64,000 bases of DNA, taken from the NCBI GenBank assembly GCA_039636785.1, contig CP144169.1, positions 124,001-188,000 on the forward strand. Reading direction: 5' to 3'. The notes beneath the pieces are model-generated. The model was not told the origin of the DNA, made no database searches, and saw nothing but the letters and a program-made list of their open reading frames with translations. Both the position numbers and the translations under genes were made by a program. Origin of the DNA: Micrococcaceae bacterium Sec5.7. GTDB taxonomy: Bacteria > Actinomycetota > Actinomycetes > Actinomycetales > Micrococcaceae. Below, piece after piece: positions 23,464-34,763 of the stretch (its first letter is position 1; each line of letters starts with the position of its first letter).

Positions 23464-26400
23464 TCAGTTCCGGTTTTCCGGGGGGAGAGCGATCTGCAGC
23501 TTCCGGACCTTCCCACGACCCACAATGTAGCCGCGGCCCGGGATGAAGTCGGTACTGATCCGTCCCAGTGAGGTGTTCAAGAGGCTGTCGCCGTCAATAT
23601 CGCCCGGGTTGATCAGGAGGCCCCGGCGCCCCGATTTGAACGGTTGTGCGAGTGACCATGCCGAGGACCAGGTGGAGGTCTCGGACTCACCGATCACCCA
23701 TTGGTCAGCCTTGATGGACGTTGTCACCAGGCGTTCCACCCCGGACTCCGCACCGGTGTCGGTGAATTCAGTCAGGCCCTCAATGAAGATGCCCAGCTTG
23801 CCCGGGTTCGCCGAGGAGTGGTCGACCAGCTCGTCGATGGCTTCCTCGACGTCGTCCGGACCCGCTATGGAGCGGGTCCAGATCCGAAGGGACGCCACAG
23901 CGGACCGGCGCGAGCCGAGGTAGATCAGTTTTGTGTCCGGGTTGGAGCGGCGGAGCGCGTAGGCCATGGTCACCAAGGCCACGGTTCGTCCGGCGCCCGG
24001 CGGTCCCGCCAGCAGCAATGGGCCCTTTGCCATGATGTCGGCCGGCTGGAGTGTTTCGTCGTCCACGCCGATGACCGGGAGATCCATGCTGCCCGGGGGA
24101 AGAATATCCAGGGCCACCTGGTCCGGCAGCCGCTCGATCCGCGGGGCCTTTTCCACACCCTGGCGCAGCATGGCTTCGCTCAGCTTGTGGACTTCACGGG
24201 CCTGCAGCGCGAGGTTGGAGTTGCCGCCCAGGACTGCAATCTGCACCTCATGGCTGCCCAGGAGCCCGCGTCCTGGAGGTGAGCTCTGGCCCAGGATGTC
24301 TTTGGGGACGTCCATGGACATGTAATCGTCCTCGGAGGACAGGCGCAGCACCAGCCGCCGCTGGATGGAGGCCAGTAACGACGCCGGGACAGAGTTGGGG
24401 CGGTCACCGGTGACTACCAGGTGGATGCCAAGGGGACGCCCGTCCGTGGCGAGTTGCAGGAAGATATCCCACAGGGCCGACAGGCGGCTGTATTCGTAGG
24501 CTTCACGGAAGGCTGACATGCCGTCCACCAGGACGAATATTCGTTTTTCTTCCGGCCGGTTGGCCAGCTTCCGGTATTCCACAATGGTGGAAGCCCTGAC
24601 CTGGGCAAACCGCGCGGAACGGTCGTCGGCCACCTCGCGCAGCCAGCGCAGGAGCCGCCCCACCCTTTCGACGTCGTCGCCGTTGATAATCTCTCCCACG
24701 TGCGGCAGCTCGTCTAGCATTTTCAGGCCCGAGGAACCACAGTCGATTCCATACACGTGCACCGGACCACCGCGGGGCGTGACCGCCGCCGCAATGGCAA
24801 TTCCGCGAAGTGCAGCCGATTTCCCGGAGCCTCCCGTTCCGTAGATGGCCATGTTGCCGACTTTGTCCGGTTCGTAGAAGACCGTGGGCTGGTCCTGGTG
24901 TGCGGGGTCGTCCGCGACCCCCAGAAGGAGCCGTTCATCGGAGCGCGGGTTGGGCAGCTTGGAGAAATCGTAGGTCGTGGCCAGTTCGTTCAGCCATGGT
25001 TTCCGTGGCGGTTCGATCGAGAGCATTGTAGCGGCCCTGATGATGTTGGCAGTCATCCGGGCGATGTCGTTTGGACCTGCCGGTTCTTCCTTCACTTTGT
25101 TCTCAGGCGCCGGAGCATGCCAGCTCGGGCCCGAGGCGAAGGCCATCTCCACGATGTCGATCTGCGGCCGCTGGGGTTTTTCCGTGGTCCAGCCGCCGGC
25201 GTAGCCGGTCTGGAAGCCTTGGATCCGGCCGGGGCCTGTTTTGGCTGCTCCACGGCCTGGAATCGACGGATCAAAGTAGGCCGCATCCGGCACCCCGAGG
25301 ATGTCGCTCGAGTCGTCTTCATCGGCCATCCGCAAGGCCACCCGGAGGTTGGTGTTGGCCCGCAGGCTTTCCTTGATGACACCGGCCGGCCGCTGCGTGG
25401 CCAGGATCAGATGCAGGCCCAGTGACCGGCCCCGGGCGGCAACGTCCACAACACCGTCCACGAATTCCGGGACCTCGGTGGCCAGGGCCGCGAACTCGTC
25501 CACAACGATGATCAGGTACGGCGGTGCCTCGGGGTCGGCCTCACGCTGCAGGCCCAGAAGATCCTTGGCTTTCTTCCGGTTCAGCAGGTGCTCCCGGAAG
25601 TGCAGCTCAGCACGGAGCGAGGTCAGGGCGCGGCGGACCAGGTGCTGCGACAGGTCCGTGACCAGACCCACGGTGTGGGGCAGGTGCAGGCAGTCGGCGA
25701 AGGCTGCCCCGCCCTTGTAGTCCACAAACAGGAAGCTCACCCGGTCCGGGCTGTAGGCCGCGGCCATGCCCATCACCCAGGACTGCAGGAACTCGGACTT
25801 TCCGGCACCGGTGGTACCGCCCACCAGCGCGTGTGGGCCCTCGTTTTTCAGGTCCAGATACAGCGGCTCGATGCCCTTGGAACCAACGAGCGCACGCAGG
25901 GTGCCGTTGTCCTTCCGGTTCGCGACGGCGGTGGAGCGGACAGAGTTGTTCTCTTTCCAGCGGTCCGCAACAGCCTGCGGGCTGTCCATGAAATCCTTGC
26001 CGATGAGGGTGGCATAGGACACGGCACGCGGGAGGTCGGAGTCATCATCCACCGGCTTGCCGACATCCACCACCGGCGCCAGCATGCGGGCCAGTTGGGC
26101 GGCCAGTTCAGCGTCGAGACTCTCACAGCTCACCGGGTAGGTGTGTCGCCCCAGCCGGACGTGGCCCGTAGTGGTGCCGTGATCGCCGTCGACCGCCATG
26201 AAATCGCGGCATGCCGCCGGAAGCGCCTGCACACTCGTAGCCACCCACATCACGTGGACTCCCGAGTCCGGTCCCCGCTCCACCAGTTTGGTGAGCCGCC
26301 CGCGGTCCACCGGGGCGTCGTCCTCCACGATGACCAGCACGGCAGGCAACACGGGTCCGGGCACTTCCGCTTTATCCGGATGGATTCCGGGCCGCGGTGC

Positions 26401-27909
26401 CGGATGGGACGCTTTGACCGCGGACTCACGGGTATCTACCAGGTCTTCAAGCCGCGCCAGCAGTGTTGAGCCGCTGGCGGAGCCTGCCGCCAGGTGGTCA
26501 CCGCTGAGCGGACTATGGCCGGAGCCAACATGGGGAAGCCACTGGAGCCAGTTCCAGCGCTCTTTCGACCGGGCGGAAGTAATGGCGGCCACCACAACTT
26601 CGGCAGGCGAGTGAAGGCCCACCAACTGGAGCACCACGCCGCGGGCCACGTCATCAACGAGCCCGCGGGAACCTGCCAGGCCGAACGAGCCTGCCGTCCG
26701 CAGCTGCGAGACAACGGGCACACCCTCGAGCTCCTGGAACTGCTTCAGGCAGTCCTGGATTTCCCGCGTGTATTCCGCTTCGGTGTCGTTGCTGTTGGAC
26801 TCTTCAAGGGGAATGCGCGTCGGCGCTGTGCCGAGTCCGAACCTCAGCCCCAGGAAACCGGTGTGCTCGGGCCGGTGCGTCCACAGCAGCGGCCCCAGTT
26901 TGTAGATCGCGTCCACCGTGTCGCTGACAGACGGCGCCTCCTGGAGCCGGACGGCGCGCTCCACATGCTGCAGTTCGGTGATGTCCTGCCTGAACGCCGC
27001 CATGGATTCGCGGAATTGCTTCAGCTGCCCCTTGCGCTCGCGCTTGCCTTGCATCTTGTGATCCATGTAATGGCCCACAATGAACAGCGGCATCATCATC
27101 ATGAACACCACCGAAAGGAGGTTGCTTGTAAAGGCGAACACAATGCCGCCCATCAGCAACGGCACAATCAGCATGATGTAGGGGAACGGCTGATGATCCT
27201 GCCGCTTGGGTCCGGCCGGCACCACGCGCTTTCCGGGCTCGAACCGGGGAACCACCCGCGGCGAGCGGTTGAAATCGACCAGGGGCGACGTCGGTGCTGC
27301 CGCCTGGTTGCGGGCCAGCGGCACCACCGTGACCGTGGTGTCGCCCAACGTCACGGTGTCCGAGGAGTCCAGTGTGGCCCGGGTGACCGGGAATCCGTCC
27401 ATCAGGAGGCCGTTGGCAGAGTTTGTGTCCACGATCTCCACGGTCTCGCCCACCGTGATTCGGGCGTGCCGCTTGGAGGTCATCGGATCCGAAAGCCTGA
27501 CGTCCACGTCCCGGTCCCGGCCGATGTAGCTGGTGCCGGATGGCAGCGAAAATTCCTGGCCGACGTCGGGTCCGGAGAGAATCCGCAGGGTGGCTGCCGC
27601 GGGTCCTCGGTTGGCTCCGGGTGCCGCGAAGTGCTCGCTGACCCGGGTCAACGAAACAATGGAACCAGGCCTGAGGCCTGATTCCAGCAGATTGTCCGTA
27701 CGGGTCAGGATGTTGCCCTTCATGCCGCCGGCCACAAAGGCCTCGTCAATGCTGAGCGAGAGGTTGGCCGGTGCCGGCGTGCCCCGCCGTTCCGGGTCAG
27801 CTGCCCAGAGCTGTGTGGCGATGTCTGCCACGGTTGCCCGGCCGTCAACGGTCACGGCGAGATCTTTGGCTTCGCCCGGGTCCCGGCGCAGGGTCAGTCG
27901 GATTCTCAC
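23464..27909 (-). CDS. EssC/EccC-like FtsK/SpoIIIE ATPase with FHA domain
   Basis: 1481-residue membrane ATPase. Residues 1-95 look like a ubiquitin-like fold (VTVDGRATVADIATQLW). An FHA domain lies at about 105-195 (YIGRDRDVDVRLSD, KRHARI, NSANG). Two membrane helices follow at about 243-280, then three P-loop domains. Domain 1 is intact: Walker A GGTTGAGKS at 697-705 and Walker B IIVVDEF at 800-806. Domain 2 keeps GTGGSGKS (1024-1031) but has VDG instead of DE. Domain 3 is degenerate (GPPGAGRT at 1302-1309). This layout matches the type VII secretion motor, closer to Firmicute EssC than mycobacterial EccC. GTG start overlaps the upstream FHA-HTH gene stop by 4 nt. The likely cargo is the neighbouring WXG100 protein. 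Confidence 0.9.
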   Translation of the reverse strand: MRIRLTLRRDPGEAKDLAVTVDGRATVADIATQLWAADPERRGTPAPANLSLSIDEAFVAGGMKGNILTRTDNLLESGLRPGSIVSLTRVSEHFAAPGANRGPAAATLRILSGPDVGQEFSLPSGTSYIGRDRDVDVRLSDPMTSKRHARITVGETVEIVDTNSANGLLMDGFPVTRATLDSSDTVTLGDTTVTVVPLARNQAAAPTSPLVDFNRSPRVVPRFEPGKRVVPAGPKRQDHQPFPYIMLIVPLLMGGIVFAFTSNLLSVVFMMMMPLFIVGHYMDHKMQGKRERKGQLKQFRESMAAFRQDITELQHVERAVRLQEAPSVSDTVDAIYKLGPLLWTHRPEHTGFLGLRFGLGTAPTRIPLEESNSNDTEAEYTREIQDCLKQFQELEGVPVVSQLRTAGSFGLAGSRGLVDDVARGVVLQLVGLHSPAEVVVAAITSARSKERWNWLQWLPHVGSGHSPLSGDHLAAGSASGSTLLARLEDLVDTRESAVKASHPAPRPGIHPDKAEVPGPVLPAVLVIVEDDAPVDRGRLTKLVERGPDSGVHVMWVATSVQALPAACRDFMAVDGDHGTTTGHVRLGRHTYPVSCESLDAELAAQLARMLAPVVDVGKPVDDDSDLPRAVSYATLIGKDFMDSPQAVADRWKENNSVRSTAVANRKDNGTLRALVGSKGIEPLYLDLKNEGPHALVGGTTGAGKSEFLQSWVMGMAAAYSPDRVSFLFVDYKGGAAFADCLHLPHTVGLVTDLSQHLVRRALTSLRAELHFREHLLNRKKAKDLLGLQREADPEAPPYLIIVVDEFAALATEVPEFVDGVVDVAARGRSLGLHLILATQRPAGVIKESLRANTNLRVALRMADEDDSSDILGVPDAAYFDPSIPGRGAAKTGPGRIQGFQTGYAGGWTTEKPQRPQIDIVEMAFASGPSWHAPAPENKVKEEPAGPNDIARMTANIIRAATMLSIEPPRKPWLNELATTYDFSKLPNPRSDERLLLGVADDPAHQDQPTVFYEPDKVGNMAIYGTGGSGKSAALRGIAIAAAVTPRGGPVHVYGIDCGSSGLKMLDELPHVGEIINGDDVERVGRLLRWLREVADDRSARFAQVRASTIVEYRKLANRPEEKRIFVLVDGMSAFREAYEYSRLSALWDIFLQLATDGRPLGIHLVVTGDRPNSVPASLLASIQRRLVLRLSSEDDYMSMDVPKDILGQSSPPGRGLLGSHEVQIAVLGGNSNLALQAREVHKLSEAMLRQGVEKAPRIERLPDQVALDILPPGSMDLPVIGVDDETLQPADIMAKGPLLLAGPPGAGRTVALVTMAYALRRSNPDTKLIYLGSRRSAVASLRIWTRSIAGPDDVEEAIDELVDHSSANPGKLGIFIEGLTEFTDTGAESGVERLVTTSIKADQWVIGESETSTWSSAWSLAQPFKSGRRGLLINPGDIDGDSLLNTSLGRISTDFIPGRGYIVGRGKVRKLQIALPPENRN

Positions 27910-28610
27910 CCTTCCTCGACCCCTCTCATCTTTTCGAGCAGGTACAGGTCATCGGCAGTCACCAGATGGGACGTCACGGAATGTTCCACGAGTCTCGCGC
28001 GCCTGTTCGTGGCGAGCTTTCCGCCACCGCCCCGGAGGCCCACCACGCCAACCCGGTCCAGCTTGTCGCACACGTTGTCCAGCTTTCTGTTGAATCGGGT
28101 AAGAGCCCACCCCAGGGACTTCGCGGCCGCTGCCGAAGACGGAATGGCGCTGAAACCGGTGCCGTCGCGGCGCAGCATGGGCTCGGACAGCGCAACGATC
28201 AATGCCTTCTGGGAGTCCGTGAATACCACCGGGCCAATGGTGGTCTCACCGTTGCTGTCGTCGTCGCGGGCCTCCTGGCGGAAAGACGGCGTCTTCAGAT
28301 GGACCGCAAACTCGTAGGTGGTTGGCCCGGCGGTGAAGACGATGTTGGTGTGGCTGAACACCAGCGGTATTCTGGCGCCCGGCGAAAGCCAGGCCTGCAT
28401 ACCGCCGGAACCGTCAGCCACGGTCGCCGACAGCATGCTGCCCACATTGCTGAGCCACCAGATGCCGTCGTAGCGGGCGATGTGCAGGAACCGGCGGTGG
28501 AGGTACGGATTGTCATCCACTTCAAGATCGCCCTCCCGCCCGATGCTGAAGACGTCCTCATCCGATGGTTCGTACCACTCGCCACAGAAATCTACTGCTA
28601 GATCCCCCAT
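27906..28610 (-). CDS. FHA-like protein with C-terminal winged-helix-like domain
   Basis: 234 residues. An N-terminal FHA-like fold (about 18-105) has SIGREGDLEVDDNPYLHRRFLHI and WLSNVGS. A linker reading DDDSNGETTIGP follows, with an ETT site resembling that of mycobacterial GarA. The C-terminal domain (about 128-212: SQKALIVALSEPML ... SLGWALTRFNRKLDNVCDKLDRVGV) looks like a winged helix. This could couple phosphothreonine binding to DNA or protein binding. The ATG at 28610 has GAGGAGG 8 nt upstream. It lies between the kinase and the secretion ATPase, overlapping the latter. Exact function unknown. Confidence 0.75.
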   Translation of the reverse strand: MGDLAVDFCGEWYEPSDEDVFSIGREGDLEVDDNPYLHRRFLHIARYDGIWWLSNVGSMLSATVADGSGGMQAWLSPGARIPLVFSHTNIVFTAGPTTYEFAVHLKTPSFRQEARDDDSNGETTIGPVVFTDSQKALIVALSEPMLRRDGTGFSAIPSSAAAAKSLGWALTRFNRKLDNVCDKLDRVGVVGLRGGGGKLATNRRARLVEHSVTSHLVTADDLYLLEKMRGVEEG

Positions 28611-28656: not shown

Positions 28657-30432
28657 TTATTTCGCGTCCACACACTCGATGGAATCCTCCCCTTCCGGAG
28701 AGGCCGAACCATCGGATCTGACGATGATCACCTGAATGCAGGTAGCCTCGTCCGGGTTGGCGCTGACATCCGCCTGCGGAGCGGACGCCGGTGCGTAGTC
28801 CCCGCCGCCCCTGACCGTTTTCACCCGCCACTTGTACGTGTCGCCGTCCTTCGGTTGCGGATTGGTCCAGCTGAACCGCACCCTGCCCGAAGACCCCGCA
28901 ACTCCGACCAGTTTCGTCACGTCCGGCACGGTGCCGTTGTCCAGCGCGTCGGCCGGTGCCTTGCTGATCACATCCGATGGCAGGACCTTCGGTTCAGGGG
29001 CGGAGGTTGCCACCACAACTCCCACGATCACGGCGAGGACCAGCAGTGCGCCGCCGGAAATGGCCATCCACAGGTTGCGCTTCCCGTGGTCGGCGGGAAG
29101 TTCCTCCTCGCACTCCCCCGGAAGAGCCGGACGGTTGACGGTGGCCGCAAGATCCGGATCCTGCCCCGACGGGGCGCGCAGCCCTGCCTGCACGTTGAGA
29201 TCGGTTGGCGCCGGGCCGGAATGCTGAATGGTCGCATCCTCGTTGGCCGTTTCCGGTGCAGCCGTGCCGCCCCTGCTGCGCAGCATGGTGGCCTGCGCCC
29301 AGTCATCTCCTTGACCTGCGTTTGCTTCATTGCTTCGCCCGGGACTCCCGGGAACCTGTCCGCCGAAAAGCCGTGGCGCAGAGACCTGGGACCGTTGCGG
29401 GGCGCGGGGGGAGGCGGCCGGTGCCGGTTGGCCAGCCAGTGGACGCGTTCTCGCGGGAAAGGTCGGCGCGCTGCCGGTGCTTTCCGGATCGATGGAGGCG
29501 ATGCTCCGGACACGGGTCTCTTCACAGCCGTCGTCGGGGTGGCTTTCGTCGTGGTGCTGCTCTTCGAGCACCTCAAAGGGAGTCACCGAAAGGTTCAGCT
29601 CGGCCTGAATCCGCTGCAGGGCAAGGGCAAAGGCGTGGGCGGAGGAATATCTGGACGCCGCGGACTTCGCCATCGCCGTCGAAAGCGTCAGCTCGAGCGA
29701 CTCGGGAACGTCTGCGCGGCCCAGCCTCGGAACGGGCATGCCGGTGATCCGGGATATCAGCTCGCGTTGGGAGTTATCTGCGCCAGGCATGACGAACGGT
29801 GAGCGGCCGGCCAGCAGGGTGTAGAGCGTCGCGCCGAGAGCCCACACGTCCACCATGACGCCGTCAACGTTTCCGTCGCGGAACTGTTCAGGCGGTGACC
29901 ACGGGATGGACATCCCGGCGTCTTCATCGGCGTCGCTGCCCAGGGTTCCGGAAATGCCGAAATCAGTCAGGGCAGGGCGGTTGTAGTCGGTGACCAGGAT
30001 GTTGGCCGGTTTGATGTCGCGGTGCGCGATGCCGGCCCGGTGGGCGGTTTCGACGGCGGACGCCACCTGGATGCCGACGGCCAGGACTTCATCCACGCTG
30101 AAGCGCTGCCGGCGGTACCGGACGTCCAGGCTCGGGCGCGAGCAGTATTCCATGGCGAGGTAGGAGTGGCCGCCCTCAGTGACTTCGGCTTCGAAGATGG
30201 TCACGATATACGGGTGGGAGGACAGCTGGGCCATCAGGTTGGCTTCGGACTCGAAGCGGCGCCGGGCACCCTCGGTCTTCAGGTCCGAAAGCAGAACCTT
30301 AACGGCCACTTTTCGGCGCGGACGGTCCTGTTCGTAAAGGTAGACGTCGGAGAACCCGCCGGAGCCCAGCAGGCTGATGTAGCTAAAGCCAGGTATATGC
30401 GGCGGCGGCGCAACTGGGCGCTTGGAGCTCAA
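28657..30432 (-). CDS. Transmembrane Ser/Thr protein kinase with FN3-like ectodomain
   Basis: 591 residues. The kinase domain spans about 14-275: G-loop GSGGFSDVY, K45 in VAVKVL, HRD at 137-139 and DFG at 157-159. A 180-residue low-complexity juxtamembrane linker contains EETRVRSI (T306) and QATMLRS (T382), then a single membrane helix at about 454-476. The extracellular C-terminus (about 510-580) reads like an FN3 domain (RVRFSWTNPQPKDGDTYKWRVKTV). There are no PASTA repeats, unlike PknB. The TTG start has GGAG upstream and overlaps the preceding gene by 4 nt. Likely the signal-receiving kinase of the cluster, comparable to Pkb2 of bifidobacteria. Confidence 0.9.
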   Translation of the reverse strand: MSSKRPVAPPPHIPGFSYISLLGSGGFSDVYLYEQDRPRRKVAVKVLLSDLKTEGARRRFESEANLMAQLSSHPYIVTIFEAEVTEGGHSYLAMEYCSRPSLDVRYRRQRFSVDEVLAVGIQVASAVETAHRAGIAHRDIKPANILVTDYNRPALTDFGISGTLGSDADEDAGMSIPWSPPEQFRDGNVDGVMVDVWALGATLYTLLAGRSPFVMPGADNSQRELISRITGMPVPRLGRADVPESLELTLSTAMAKSAASRYSSAHAFALALQRIQAELNLSVTPFEVLEEQHHDESHPDDGCEETRVRSIASIDPESTGSAPTFPARTRPLAGQPAPAASPRAPQRSQVSAPRLFGGQVPGSPGRSNEANAGQGDDWAQATMLRSRGGTAAPETANEDATIQHSGPAPTDLNVQAGLRAPSGQDPDLAATVNRPALPGECEEELPADHGKRNLWMAISGGALLVLAVIVGVVVATSAPEPKVLPSDVISKAPADALDNGTVPDVTKLVGVAGSSGRVRFSWTNPQPKDGDTYKWRVKTVRGGGDYAPASAPQADVSANPDEATCIQVIIVRSDGSASPEGEDSIECVDAK

Positions 30433-32336
30433 AGGATCTCCTCAAAACGCAGCGAAATGTCATCGCCCAGTTCCGCAATATCGCCGTCCAGGAGGATCGC
30501 CATTTCATTTTGCGCCAGGCGACGGGGCTGCTGGCCTTCCCGGACCAGGACTGTGCCGTTGGTTGCCTTCAGATCGCACAGCATCACGTGCCACCCCTCA
30601 AGGCGTACCTCCACGTGCGAGCGCGAAATGTCGCCGCTGGGGCTCGCCACCTGGACGAGCCTGGGCATCACACCGCCCTGGACCCTGGACACCGACGGCT
30701 GCCGTCCGATCACCAGAGACTGGTCAAGATCCACAACCTCGCCGGTGGACAGGCGCACCCGCCCCAGCCGGGGCCGCGGAACCTGCACTGCGTCGGCCGG
30801 CAATGGCATCCGGCAGCTGAAGCACCGTGAATTCGTGGACGGGTTGGCATGGCCCTGGGCACATACCCGGGCCAGAACCAGCGGGCAGGCTGCCTCCGAA
30901 TCCGGAGCCGGGAGCCGTGCCTGATGGGCGGCCGTGCCGGCCAGATCGCTTTTCATGATGGTCTGGCCGTCGTGGTCGCCGTCGTTGTCGACTGGCCGTC
31001 CGGGCTGGTTCTGCCGGCGGGGCATGGGAAGTCCCGCCACCGGAGGGGCCGGAGTGGCCGGAGTGGCGTTGAAGGACGACGGCGTCCCTGGCCGGGGCGG
31101 GTTATCCCCGCCTGAATGCCAGGGAACCGAGTCGATCAGCTCTACGCTGGCCGGGGGCCGCGCGGCGGCTTCCTGAACGGGGAGGGGAGGTGTCTGCGGC
31201 AAGGATGCGCCGGCGTCTTCCGACGCCCGACCCGGATCGGGGCCGTCGCTGTCAGATCCGGCGGAGCCGGCCTCTCCGGCTTCTCCAGCAACAGGCTGCT
31301 GTCCGGCGGAGCCGTGCCCGCCGCCGTTTTCGGGTTCATCACGCACAGCGGCGTCCTCGATGCTGCGCACTACGGTTTTTTCCCACAGGTGGTCGTACGT
31401 CCCCGTATGCTCGTTGGCCGGAACAGCTGCGCGGGCTGGCCGGCCCAAGTCCGGATGGGCGTCGTCGTCGCTGACGCCCATCACTGTCTCTGCGGAGGCG
31501 CCGTGCTCGGTGCTTTCCGCGACCGGTTCATCCGTGGCCGGTTCATCCGTGACAGTGCCGTCCGAACCGGCAGCCGTTGAAACTTCAGCGGGCACTTCCT
31601 CGGCCGAAGGTTCAGGTGCGGAACCGTCCCCGGATCCTGCGGTACCTGCGCTGGCTGATTCCGGTGGATCCTCTGCTTCCTGCGGATCCTCCGTACCGGT
31701 AATTTTCGACGGCGGCACAACAGCAGGAGGCGGTTGTGACGGCAGCGCAGCGGACGCTGCCATGGTTGCAGGCCCAGGGGCGATTGCAGGTGCGGGGGCA
31801 GGTGAGGGGGCGGCGAAAACGGCCGCGGCGGCTTCCGGCGTGGCACCTGCTTCAGCTGACGCAGGGGAAGGACGGCCGCGGGCACCATTCCCGGCGCCCG
31901 CAACGGCCACCCTCAGCCCCTGGAGCAGCACCACCCCCTCACTCAGCGGAAGCTCCACACTGCCGGTGGCCTCGCCCGGCACAGTCAGGCTGTACCACTC
32001 CGGGGCCAAGAGCCACCGTTCGGTCCAGGTCGTAACGTCGCGGCCGTTGAGCTCCACCGGGCCAGTGGGCAACTGCACCGTCAGATCGATGTCGCCGCGC
32101 AGGAAAACACCCAGCGAGTCCTGGAAATCAACGATTCCGAACGGCGGGACCTTTGCCAGCGACACCCCGAAACTCCTGGTCACGGCATGGAGCACTTCAT
32201 GGACTTCAGGCCCGGTTTCCAGAAGCTCCCAGAGCGATTGCACCAGGGCAGGCGTAGTATCCGCCCGCAGCACCACGGCAGTCCGTGATCGGACAATTCC
32301 AAGCCAGGAGCCGGAAATGTAGTTACTGGCGACCAT
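30429..32336 (-). CDS. FHA-domain protein with zinc-ribbon and long low-complexity linker
   Basis: 635 residues. An N-terminal globular region (about 1-145) is unrecognised. A Pro/Ala/acidic linker (about 150-480) contains three acidic-T-hydrophobic sites (ETVMGVS at T284, EKTVVRSIED at T321, GQTIMKSD at T459). A zinc-ribbon-like CAQGHANPSTNSRCFSC lies at about 492-508. A C-terminal FHA domain (about 522-635) has VIGRQPSV, ISRSHVEV and ATNGT. The ATG at 32336 lies inside the phosphatase gene end (14-nt overlap). A longer in-frame reading to 32510 would overlap the phosphatase fully and is rejected. Probably a kinase substrate and scaffold. Confidence 0.82.
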   Translation of the reverse strand: MVASNYISGSWLGIVRSRTAVVLRADTTPALVQSLWELLETGPEVHEVLHAVTRSFGVSLAKVPPFGIVDFQDSLGVFLRGDIDLTVQLPTGPVELNGRDVTTWTERWLLAPEWYSLTVPGEATGSVELPLSEGVVLLQGLRVAVAGAGNGARGRPSPASAEAGATPEAAAAVFAAPSPAPAPAIAPGPATMAASAALPSQPPPAVVPPSKITGTEDPQEAEDPPESASAGTAGSGDGSAPEPSAEEVPAEVSTAAGSDGTVTDEPATDEPVAESTEHGASAETVMGVSDDDAHPDLGRPARAAVPANEHTGTYDHLWEKTVVRSIEDAAVRDEPENGGGHGSAGQQPVAGEAGEAGSAGSDSDGPDPGRASEDAGASLPQTPPLPVQEAAARPPASVELIDSVPWHSGGDNPPRPGTPSSFNATPATPAPPVAGLPMPRRQNQPGRPVDNDGDHDGQTIMKSDLAGTAAHQARLPAPDSEAACPLVLARVCAQGHANPSTNSRCFSCRMPLPADAVQVPRPRLGRVRLSTGEVVDLDQSLVIGRQPSVSRVQGGVMPRLVQVASPSGDISRSHVEVRLEGWHVMLCDLKATNGTVLVREGQQPRRLAQNEMAILLDGDIAELGDDISLRFEEIL

Positions 32337-33294
32337 GACCGGAGTCCTCGCTTTCGGCGGAACCTGATTCGGGTTCGTCGCTCTCTGCCGCATCTGTCCC
32401 GTCGGGGCCAGCGGCAGAGGAGTCAAGGTCCTGGAAATCCGGAACTTCCGTGCGCGGAAGTGTGCCCTCGTCCTCAGCAGAAGAGGAGGCGCGCGGTGCG
32501 GTGGTGGCAACGCCGGCGTCGTTCATCACGTTCTTGGCGTCAATCACAATCACAGTGACGTTGTCTCTGCCTCCGTTGCGGAGTGCCGCCTGGATCAGCG
32601 CATCCACCGCGTCCTGCGGGTGGCCCACTGTGCTGAGGATGCGGAACATGTGGTCATCAGTGAGTTCTGCGTTGAGACCGTCCGAACAGACCAGGATCCG
32701 GTCGCCTTCCTCCACCGGCAGAAGCCAGTAATCGGCCTCGGTCTCGTCGCCGGTGCCCAGTGCCCGTGTGACCACATGCCGGCGGGGGTGGACCGCAGCC
32801 TGTTCCGGGGTGATCTCGCCGGCGTCCACAAGTTCCTGGACTTCGGAGTGGTCCACGCTGACCTGCGCAAACTGGCCCTGGCTCAGCCGGTACGTCCGCG
32901 AATCTCCGATGTTCATCACCAGCCAATACGGCATGCCCATCTGTTCAACCACCACCACACCGGTGAGTGTGGTGCCGGCCCGTGCGCCGGCGGCCCTGCG
33001 GATGCTGTCGTCGGCCTGGATCAGATACTGCTGAAGGACAGCTGCCGTGGCCGTCCGCTCGCCCGTGGCAAGCTGCGGCATTCCGGCCAGAGCACGGACG
33101 CACATCCCGCTGGCAATTTCGCCCGCTTCATGGCCGCCCATGCCGTCAGCCACCGCAAACACCGGGTCAGAGGCAATAAATGAGTCCTCGTTCAGTTCCC
33201 GTCGCAGTCCTCGGTCCGTGCCATAGCCGTAGCTCAGACTGAGTCCCGGCTCGCGGCCGGTGGTGGGAGAGGAAGCGGCGGGCTGGGAATTCAT
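32323..33294 (-). CDS. PP2C-family Ser/Thr phosphatase
   Basis: 323 residues, cytosolic. PP2C metal-binding motifs are visible: RELNEDSF, VADGMGGHEAGE, CSDGLNAELTDD and GGRDNVTVIVID. The last 55 residues form an acidic Ser/Asp/Glu-rich tail. Unlike mycobacterial PstP, it has no membrane helix. Its ATG overlaps the stop of the RDD-FHA gene as ATGA, and its end overlaps the FHA gene. It is the natural antagonist of the cluster kinase. Confidence 0.93.
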   Translation of the reverse strand: MNSQPAASSPTTGREPGLSLSYGYGTDRGLRRELNEDSFIASDPVFAVADGMGGHEAGEIASGMCVRALAGMPQLATGERTATAAVLQQYLIQADDSIRRAAGARAGTTLTGVVVVEQMGMPYWLVMNIGDSRTYRLSQGQFAQVSVDHSEVQELVDAGEITPEQAAVHPRRHVVTRALGTGDETEADYWLLPVEEGDRILVCSDGLNAELTDDHMFRILSTVGHPQDAVDALIQAALRNGGRDNVTVIVIDAKNVMNDAGVATTAPRASSSAEDEGTLPRTEVPDFQDLDSSAAGPDGTDAAESDEPESGSAESEDSGHGRQ

Positions 33295-34763
33295 GCCTGT
33301 CCTAAGTGGAAGTTGCGGTCACCGAAGTGGACGGTGGAACCTGGGCTGACGAACGCCGGCACGCCGGCACGCAGGGGCGTGCGGACGCCGTCCGGTGTGG
33401 TGACAGCGCTGCCGTTGGTGGAATTCCGGTCCGTGACCCAGACTCCGGCGCCATCCGTCAGGAGATGGAGGTGCGTTTTGGAGATGGAGCGGCCCGGATC
33501 CACAACTGCAAACAACTGCGCCTGCTGCTCCCCCGGGTGACCGTTCGGATTCCGGCCGATGAGAACGTTCCGGTCCAGCCGGAAGTCCCGTCCGTCGTCG
33601 AGCCTGATCCGCAGCACAGCCAGCGGAGCAGGCTGTTGGGCGCCGCCCCTCATCTGCGTGCGGTCGTGGTCATCGTCCAGGTGGGCCTGCGGCTGCGGGA
33701 TTGCCTGCGGCGGCTGGACGGCCTGTGGCTTCGGGATTGGTTGCGGCTGCGGAGTTGACTGCTGAGCGGCGGCCGGCGACTGTGTGGCGGCGACCGGAGA
33801 GGAAACCTGCTGTATAGGAGGAAGATCCAGCGGCGCGAAGCTGTACGGGCCCTGGATGCCACCTGTGGCTATGGGATTGCGGCCGGCCTTGACATCGAAA
33901 ACCAGGGTTTTGGCTGCGGCGTCGTGCCAGCCCCTCAGCTTGGCATTTTTATCCCAGGAATTGGAGAGCACCACCACGACAGCCCACGCGGCGCCGATGA
34001 CCACCAACGGTCCCAAAATGAATAGAGCAGGATCGAACCATTTGAAAATGACCACAAAGATGGCGGCGATGACGGCCAGCAGAATGCCCCCTCCGGTTAC
34101 GATCCCGCGTACAAAAACCCCGCCTGCGCCCGGCGCATAGCCGTCATTGTCCGCGCTGCGGATGCCCATGAGCTGGTTCCCGATGGTGTTGCCGGACCGG
34201 CCTTCCAGACCCATAATGACAGACATGTAGATCAGCACCAGCCCGATGGCGATGCCGCCGAAGAGAACCAGCGATCCCGTGTCATAAACGATGAAGCCCC
34301 CGCTCCGGGTGCGGGTGACGCCGGCGAAGCCGACGGCAAACATAGCCACCAGGACGACAAGGGGCCCCAGCCAGTCCAGTACTGCTGCACCGAGGCGTCT
34401 GCCTGCGGCTGCGGGAACCAGCCCTGAATTGGCTGCCATTCGAGTTCCTCCCCGTTGACCACGCCCAGCAGGCCCGTGGCCCGCCTGGCTTTGACCGGGG
34501 TAGCTGTGACCCGGGTCGCCGGCGCCGGAATCGGCGCTCCCTTGACCTGTCGCGGCCGGATCCGTCTGCATTACCGGGATATTACCGGGAATCTGGGTTC
34601 CGTGCGCCGCGGCCTGTTCCATCAGGGCATTCTGCGCATGGTCAACGTTGCGCATGCTTCGCGCCGCCCGGTTAGTGAGGGGGGCGCCACACGCGGTGCA
34701 GAAAGTCGCCCCCGGACGGATCAGCTGCTGGCAGCGCTGGCAGCGCTCGGCGTCAACGCTCAT
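33291..34763 (-). CDS. Zinc-ribbon, RDD membrane and FHA domain protein
   Basis: 490 residues. An N-terminal zinc ribbon (C8, C11, C22, C25: CQRCQQ ... CTACG) is followed by an RDD-type membrane domain with four hydrophobic segments (about 119-290). A Pro/Gln-rich linker contains DRTQMRGG (T369), and a C-terminal FHA domain (about 381-490) has LIGRNPNG, ISKTHLHL and NSTNG. It places an FHA reader on the inner membrane face. The ATG at 34763 overlaps the transglutaminase gene end by 11 nt; upstream codons lie within that gene and are not accepted. Its ribosome-binding site is weak, consistent with coupled translation. Confidence 0.88.
   Translation of the reverse strand: MSVDAERCQRCQQLIRPGATFCTACGAPLTNRAARSMRNVDHAQNALMEQAAAHGTQIPGNIPVMQTDPAATGQGSADSGAGDPGHSYPGQSQAGHGPAGRGQRGGTRMAANSGLVPAAAGRRLGAAVLDWLGPLVVLVAMFAVGFAGVTRTRSGGFIVYDTGSLVLFGGIAIGLVLIYMSVIMGLEGRSGNTIGNQLMGIRSADNDGYAPGAGGVFVRGIVTGGGILLAVIAAIFVVIFKWFDPALFILGPLVVIGAAWAVVVVLSNSWDKNAKLRGWHDAAAKTLVFDVKAGRNPIATGGIQGPYSFAPLDLPPIQQVSSPVAATQSPAAAQQSTPQPQPIPKPQAVQPPQAIPQPQAHLDDDHDRTQMRGGAQQPAPLAVLRIRLDDGRDFRLDRNVLIGRNPNGHPGEQQAQLFAVVDPGRSISKTHLHLLTDGAGVWVTDRNSTNGSAVTTPDGVRTPLRAGVPAFVSPGSTVHFGDRNFHLGQA

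Follow-up and report, generated by a model that had tools for sequence, protein, structure and literature searches.

In a 64,000-nucleotide stretch of the 4.4-Mb genome of Micrococcaceae bacterium Sec5.7 (contig CP144169.1, positions 124,001 to 188,000; below, the window, with coordinates counted from its first letter), a Ser/Thr kinase is encoded beside a PP2C phosphatase and two FHA-domain proteins, and we found that the disordered linkers of these four proteins carry a short Thr-x-x-Arg/Lys motif whose sites are conserved islands amid variable sequence. Across related gene clusters, Arg three residues after the Thr (+3) is associated with an acidic residue two positions before the Ser of the FHA SxxH motif (Ser-2), which in the window is Asp569 of an FHA protein that also has a zinc ribbon. 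We propose that the motifs are phosphorylation-dependent docking sites: the kinase would phosphorylate the Thr, and the zinc-ribbon FHA protein would dock on phosphothreonine (pThr)-x-x-Arg by means of Asp569, forming a hub together with the phosphatase. We put the probability of this reading at roughly two in three.

Thr-x-x-Arg/Lys sites in the linkers of the cluster proteins

A sequence-only reading of this DNA had described an acidic-Thr-x-hydrophobic-Arg/Lys pattern in seven strings from the kinase and three FHA proteins of the cluster, and had proposed an alignment of orthologues to see whether they form conserved islands. All seven strings are present where that reading had placed them. 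The sites and their genes are listed below, where rows are those of the near-relative set (80 named, Arthrobacter-type loci; 78 to 80 rows per protein including the window, with identical and short rows left out). The residue numbers presume ATG starts inside the longest open reading frames, 58 codons in for the zinc-ribbon FHA protein and 24 for the FHA protein with an RDD domain (RDD-FHA).

28657..30432, minus strand: Ser/Thr kinase, 591 amino acids (Pkinase, 1e-39; HRD and DFG present)
29503..29523, minus strand: kinase site 1, EETRVRS (T306); E304 to R309 each identical in 80/80 rows
29275..29295, minus strand: kinase site 2, QATMLRS (T382); T in 80/80, L at +2 in 72/80, R at +3 in 72/80 and K in 2/80 rows
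29128..29148, minus strand: kinase site 3, AATVNRP (T431), new with respect to the earlier reading; T and R each in 72/80 rows, with a gap in the remaining 8
30429..32336, minus strand: zinc-ribbon FHA protein from its ATG start, 635 amino acids (FHA, 1.3e-4, over the cut-off)
31353..31382, minus strand: zinc-ribbon FHA site EKTVVRSIED (T321); T, V at +1, R at +3, I and E in 79/79 rows
30945..30974, minus strand: zinc-ribbon FHA site HDGQTIMKSD (T459); T in 79/79, K in 78/79 and R in 1/79 rows
31470..31490, minus strand: zinc-ribbon FHA string ETVMGVS (T284), without Arg at +3; T in 75/79 rows
32323..33294, minus strand: PP2C phosphatase with a C-terminal tail (PP2C_2, 4.5e-13)
32491..32505, minus strand: PP2C tail site TTAPR (T265); T, P and R each in 79/79 rows
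32452..32469, minus strand: PP2C tail site EGTLPR (T278); T, L and P each in 79/79 rows, R in 77 and K in 2
33291..34763, minus strand: RDD-FHA membrane protein from its ATG start (RDD, 2.2e-9; FHA, 4.1e-4)
33645..33665, minus strand: RDD-FHA site DRTQMRG (T369); T and R at +3 (R372) in 78/78 near rows

The shared core is narrower than the pattern first described and comes down to Thr-x-x-Arg/Lys: ETVMGVS and GETTIGP, the latter from a further protein labelled FHA-HTH (HTH, helix-turn-helix), have no Arg or Lys at +3, and in QATMLRS no acidic residue immediately precedes the Thr. T265 and T278 of the PP2C tail and T431 of the kinase (TVNR) had been overlooked. ETVMGVS, DHDGxT[IV] and TTIGP are conserved, yet they fall outside the Arg+3 set. 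DHDG-x-T-[IV] is found ahead of the zinc ribbon in 22 of 41 rows from the organism's order, even without Arg at +3, and makes up a further conserved Thr motif of a different kind. Lys at +3 of T459 is confined to near relatives.

Among the near relatives, the eight linker Thr residues with Arg or Lys at +3 have identities of 0.90 to 1.00 across the 78 to 80 rows, against a median of 0.08 for the remaining 30 linker Thr, six of which reach at least 0.73 (Mann-Whitney p 4.5e-5). The alignment of orthologues thus bears out the description as conserved islands.

The sites also exceed what chance would provide. In the disordered segments of the kinase, the zinc-ribbon FHA protein, the phosphatase and the RDD-FHA protein (762 amino acids, 42 Thr and 65 Ser), T[VILMRQ][VILMFHP][RK] occurs six times against 0.18 expected, a count reached in 0 of 5000 shuffles; plain T..[RK] occurs seven times against 2.27 (22 of 5000 shuffles), and the Ser version of the core 0 times against 0.25. 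For the background, we drew 169 disordered segments (9590 amino acids, 652 Thr) from the other window genes and from 400 kb of this genome, and found T..[RK] 74 times against 71.7 expected and the core three times against 5.8, i.e., no enrichment. Since T..[RK] stands at expectation in these segments, the motif is not a genome-wide habit. Linkers of this kind often contain Arg, Thr, and acidic residues, which could suggest an origin in chance, composition, or low complexity; the shuffles, the background at expectation, and the conservation across families make that explanation extremely improbable. The genome codes for five further kinases, of which L198, L199, and L200 have disordered linkers; the core pattern is absent from these three, L198 having TPVR, and kinase L201 has no disordered linker. 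A TTTML string at the C terminus of the transglutaminase of the cluster lies within a conserved block, not in a variable linker.

Distribution of the motif across the order

We extended the survey to 60 loci out of 51 genomes of the order, dropping clusters with fewer than five recognised genes and counting one row per genus in the positional and core-pattern tests. The positional test presupposed no motif. Each genus contributed one linker per protein, 75 in all (10667 amino acids, 739 Thr), and zinc-ribbon FHA linkers in which no zinc ribbon could be recognised had been removed, which reduced their 41 rows to 21. The strongest feature around Thr was Arg at +3 (93 against 44.5 expected, z 8.3), followed by Met at +2, Leu at -5, Asp at -4, Glu at -2, and Arg at +1; for Ser, the 16 top-listed features included no Arg. 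The kinase (51 against 20.1 expected) and PP2C (23 against 5.4) are the source of the signal.

In kinase linkers, where 2.7 core sites would be expected, there are 39, spread over 20 of 23 genera. A T-x-hydrophobic-[RK] site is carried by 34 of the 39 order kinases, the first one lying 31 to 52 residues past the catalytic domain; its surroundings are rich in acidic residues, mostly with Arg at +1 and Val or Ile at +5. PP2C tails hold 10 core sites against 0.6 expected; 15 of 20 genera (4.7 expected) have plain T..R in this tail, and 28 of the 34 tails of the order have TxP[RK]. Zinc-ribbon FHA linkers hold eight core sites against 1.2, in 5 of 11 genera. For the RDD-FHA protein, the invariance of T and R in near relatives stands, but over the order the core, found in 2 of 21 genera where 1.4 would be expected, is not enriched. 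Extending that search to all disordered segments with a looser core gave 7 of 21 against 3.6 expected, and we rejected an order-wide RDD-FHA motif. Order-wide, the kinase and the PP2C tail keep the core, the zinc-ribbon FHA protein keeps it in part, and the RDD-FHA protein does not.

Throughout the order, the linkers of the kinase and PP2C contain no Ser version of the core, and those of the other two proteins contain about as many as expected (2 against 1.5 and 3 against 1.6). This bears on the alternative that the motifs work without phosphate, as docking or folding motifs that bind, for instance, the kinase lobe or PP2C. The T321 island, of about 19 residues (314 to 332), is longer than an FHA ligand needs and would suit such a role, and both phosphorylation and binding are steps that we infer. 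A motif of that kind would not account for the presence of Thr at position 306 in all 80 near rows or for the scarcity of Ser versions, and the genes adjoin FHA domains with intact binding residues, so that we regard this alternative as quite unlikely.

An acidic FHA residue associated with Arg at +3

30630..30632, minus strand: Asp569, the Ser-2 residue of the SxxH motif in the FHA domain (GDISRSH), predicted to read Arg at pThr+3; D in 78 and N in 1 of 79 rows

The residue three after the pThr contributes to FHA selectivity, as described in a part of PMC5549992, and in Rad53-FHA1 an Arg of loop 3, Arg83, selects Asp at +3, according to a section of PMC4037201. In the zinc-ribbon FHA protein, the pThr-binding residues R545, S571, H574, N593, and G594 are kept in 79 of 79 rows. 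We take Rad53 Arg83 to be the residue two before the Ser of SxxH, relying on the Ser-2 wording of the Rad53 paper together with the residue numbering of Rad53. Across 75 clusters, Ser-2 of the zinc-ribbon FHA protein is Asp in 68, Glu in two, and His, Val, Gln, Gly, and Leu in one each (acidic in 70/75). In other FHA domains of the order, it is Thr in 17, Gly in 15, Tyr in five, Asp in two, and Leu and Phe in one each (n = 41); these readings cover 41 of 55 matches (one apparently misread; of those left unread, 10 had Tyr or Phe by eye and the rest were duplicates) and fall in few families, so they are not independent. RDD-FHA proteins have Ser (24), Ala (7), Thr (5), or Leu (1) in the 37 of 39 readable rows, and the FHA domains of the EssC-like ATPases Leu (6), Met (6), Gln (1), or Ser (1) in the 14 of 24 readable rows.

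To analyse covariation, we gathered 40 further clusters with DUF58 as bait, blind to FHA and kinase. The only requirement for a cluster was that it contain a kinase and a zinc-ribbon FHA gene; L272 was dropped because its kinase linker could not be delimited (n = 74), and the first juxtamembrane kinase site was picked by a score that ignored +3. Clusters with acidic Ser-2 have Arg at +3 of this site in 68 of 69 cases and those with a non-acidic residue in 0 of 5. The five are L078 (TRVS, His at Ser-2), L080 (TRIV, Val), L077 (TRIA, Gln), L297 (THMG, Leu), and L091 (Gly); in four of them, the Thr and its acidic setting are kept and only the +3 letter has changed. A looser pattern anywhere in the linker is found in 69/69 acidic clusters and in 1/5 non-acidic ones (L297 has TTAR elsewhere). 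Among 108 FHA columns, Ser-2 ranks first in its association with the kinase +3 trait (p 7.6e-6; the next reaches 1.6e-4). In the second-best column, residue 578 (window 30603-30605), Arg, Lys, or Gln gives way to Glu or Asp in four rows out of the six that lack Arg at +3.

In L078, moreover, the PP2C tail reads TLPN and the T321 island has TSLV. Arg at +3 of the PP2C tail is the top of 255 PP2C columns that track the kinase +3 (p 0.0014, from three rare-class rows only, one of them L044), and TxP[RK] is found in the tail in 59 of 62 clusters with acidic Ser-2 and in 0 of 2 with a non-acidic residue. Two clusters, L074 and L080, occur together in one genome (G054), L074 with Asp at Ser-2 and Arg at +3, L080 with Val at both; to judge from their sequences, they could possibly be insulated paralogous pathways.

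Several points weigh against the docking reading. In the order, when the zinc-ribbon FHA and the RDD-FHA linkers are each taken singly, their nine leading features do not include Arg at +3. Plain T..R occurs about as often as expected in the zinc-ribbon FHA linkers (11 against 9.3). A control pattern that moves the basic residue to +4 likewise exceeds expectation (nine against 2.7 in the kinase, five against 1.1 in the zinc-ribbon FHA protein), although in the kinase this falls far below the excess of the core. L044 has acidic Ser-2 and Asn at +3 of site 1 (TRMN), with another site, DETVHR, present, and L091 has no clearly homologous site. Moreover, FHA specificity is not settled by Ser-2 and +3 alone, a caution that PMC4037201 itself gives. 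The kinase tree shows three changes to the non-acidic state, and starred branches compel two of them. Two independent pairs on such branches are in agreement, too few for significance, and four of the five non-acidic clusters (all but L297) sit on long end branches. Column S221 of the kinase domain, the best of 264, matches Ser-2 in its covariation with +3 (p 5.0e-6), and a column of the RDD-FHA linker, the best of 245, reaches 2.5e-4. Because of these two columns, a change in kinase preference, alone or together with the reader, or plain divergence could lie behind part of the pattern.

Kinase residue 221, at window 29770-29772, may share in substrate choice. If the motif were only the substrate consensus of the kinase, with Arg at +3 picked by the catalytic cleft and the pThr read by the FHA domain regardless of +3, the strength of S221 would be expected, and the kinase and phosphatase that bear the sites would be natural substrates. 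This would leave the acidic Ser-2 of this FHA family unexplained (70/75 against 2/41 in the others, and first of the 108 columns), and the kinase scan was the wider one, with 264 columns against 108; we consider it unlikely. An equally unlikely account is that five fast-evolving or paralogous clusters jointly lost unrelated features. It would fit the long end branches, the occurrence of L080 as a second cluster in the genome that also holds L074, and the fact that other kinase and RDD-FHA columns separate the same rows. However, clusters of similarly low BLAST score retain both features, the site being present in 28/28 with acidic Ser-2 against 0/5 (strict) or 1/5 (loose) of the non-acidic ones, and the Thr and its context are kept in four of the five, with only +3 altered. 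The proposal of the sequence-only reading that the sites form a wiring code between kinase and FHA domains has gained comparative support from the islands and from the covariation of the +3 Arg with Ser-2, phosphorylation itself being something we infer.

The cluster, its proposed circuit and known systems

In minus-strand order, the cluster comprises genes for a 2033-amino-acid Fn3-type protein, MoxR, DUF58, transglutaminase, the RDD-FHA protein, PP2C, the zinc-ribbon FHA protein, the kinase, the FHA-HTH protein, and an EssC-like ATPase with an FHA domain. The Fn3, MoxR, and HTH labels are our assumption, for Fn3 also on the basis of gene neighbourhood, and with them the kinase, Fn3, MoxR, DUF58, and transglutaminase genes are found all together. 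The last two genes in that order are the following.

27906..28610, minus strand: FHA-HTH protein, GETTIGP at 28230-28250, not in the TxxR set; TTIGP in 78-79/79 rows, without a Pfam match
23464..27909, minus strand: EssC-like ATPase with one FHA domain, candidate output (TIGR03928, 1.1e-163, below its cut-off; FHA, 3.5e-11)

The kinase sequence contains VAVK, HRDIKPANIL, and DFG, and by these residues it qualifies as a Hanks-type kinase predicted to be active; its juxtamembrane linker (about 275-455) is followed by a hydrophobic, transmembrane-like stretch. The zinc-ribbon FHA protein has an N-terminal domain (1-145), a disordered linker (about 148-482), a zinc ribbon, and a C-terminal FHA domain. 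In its structure model, the mean predicted local distance difference test (pLDDT) score is 56, mostly below 50 in the linker, and the FHA part is poor. The N-terminal domain (window 31902-32336) is well predicted and has no Pfam match; a fold search with it gave weak PP2C-like matches only (PstP, 1txo, best E 0.1), and it is perhaps a degenerate phosphatase fragment.

The RDD-FHA and EssC-like proteins of the window match the FHA pattern (GR, SxxH, NG). The FHA-HTH protein, which the sequence-only reading had included among the motif bearers, lacks Arg at +3 and drops out: the GR/SxxH/NG pattern is absent, and the protein matched neither a Pfam family (E up to 0.1) nor an NCBIfam family (E up to 0.01). 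Its FHA part has no recognisable binding residues, and identity is 51-63% in 15 of 16 strong matches outside the genus and 40% in one; the best 80 named matches of its gene belong to Arthrobacter, Paenarthrobacter, and Pseudarthrobacter. No WXG100 gene was found near the cluster. The sole match above the cut-off in the genome, at C1:730961, is about 560 kb away, and a second one, below the cut-off, lies at C1:397443.

In the circuit that we propose, the kinase would autophosphorylate its juxtamembrane Thr306 and Thr382 (and Thr431), giving pThr-x-x-Arg, and would also phosphorylate the PP2C tail and the zinc-ribbon FHA linker, as well as the RDD-FHA protein in Arthrobacter relatives. The zinc-ribbon FHA protein would be recruited to the active kinase, holding the pThr by Arg545, Ser571, His574, and Asn593-Gly594 and selecting Arg at +3 through Asp569 at Ser-2; its own T321 (and T459) sites might bind further copies or close on the protein itself. 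The phosphorylated tail would draw the phosphatase to the hub as a negative, self-limiting feedback, and in Arthrobacter relatives the RDD-FHA protein would join. The output would probably be the EssC-like ATPase, whose FHA domain keeps GR, SxxH, and NG, or the envelope proteins of the cluster.

Kinase-FHA switches are already known from type VI secretion, PknB-CwlM-FhaA, and GarA. Unlike the zinc-ribbon FHA family, the FHA domains of this order that we take to be FhaA-like mostly have Gly at Ser-2. In the mycobacterial PknB-CwlM-FhaA system, as in the one proposed here, an FHA protein binds a phosphorylated C-terminal tail (PMC6180346, in part). In the type VI PpkA-Fha-TssL system, a kinase-made pThr bound by an Fha protein controls secretion, with one target site and an unrelated secretion machinery (PMC3953482, in part). 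The sites had also been likened to the ETTSVFR phosphosite of GarA, and this likeness fails because it is out of register: the letters ETTSVFR put Arg at +5 or +4, not +3. What is shared with GarA/OdhI is an actinobacterial Thr kinase, an unstructured segment, and an FHA domain in one network. The GarA motif is ETTS, with T21 as the first Thr, and its phosphorylation switches off the protein's own activity (PMC5448819, in the part compared); the quoted letters hold two adjacent Thr and no Arg at +3, whereas here ETTS is lacking and a single Thr with Arg (or Lys) at +3 recurs across kinase, phosphatase, and FHA proteins, and a GarA/OdhI-type phosphosite was rejected.

As regards gene content, the T7SSd and T7SSe type VII secretion systems have an EssC-type ATPase with FHA and a membrane kinase, T7SSe also a PPM phosphatase and an FHA protein, and Thr-phosphorylation control of both was raised by Garrett et al. 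2024 (PMC11217815); no phosphosite motif is described in the parts of that paper compared. The present cluster shares with T7SSd an EssC-type ATPase whose FHA domain has the pThr residues, with a TIGR03928 score below the cut-off. It differs in having no WXG100 gene nearby and in adding RDD-FHA, transglutaminase, DUF58, and MoxR, and its head is the Fn3-type protein, noticed in comparison with the Ig-like envelope protein TsdI of T7SSd. The bifidobacterial PFNA operon also combines a kinase, an Fn3 protein, a MoxR ATPase, DUF58, and transglutaminase, with a phosphatase and an FHA protein in some species; the gene order is different, and the compared parts of PMC8430577 contain no linker motif and name MoxR and housekeeping proteins as Pkb2 substrates.

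It may be that one FHA family reads pThr-x-x-Arg on the kinase, on the phosphatase, and on itself as a private and rewritable phospho-code, reader and several +3 letters having changed together in separate lineages, which could keep apart two clusters in one genome; to this we give not quite an even chance. We found no Thr-x-x-Arg code in our searches of the open PubMed Central literature, subscription papers being outside that scope. The binding choice of bacterial FHA domains is seldom readable from sequence, and the rule here, acidic Ser-2 with Arg at +3, would predict binding partners in a widespread actinobacterial cluster and names the phosphatase as a recruited member, with the non-acidic clusters supplying natural charge-change variants. 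If true, it would provide concrete sites for the Thr-phosphorylation control suggested for EssC-type systems.

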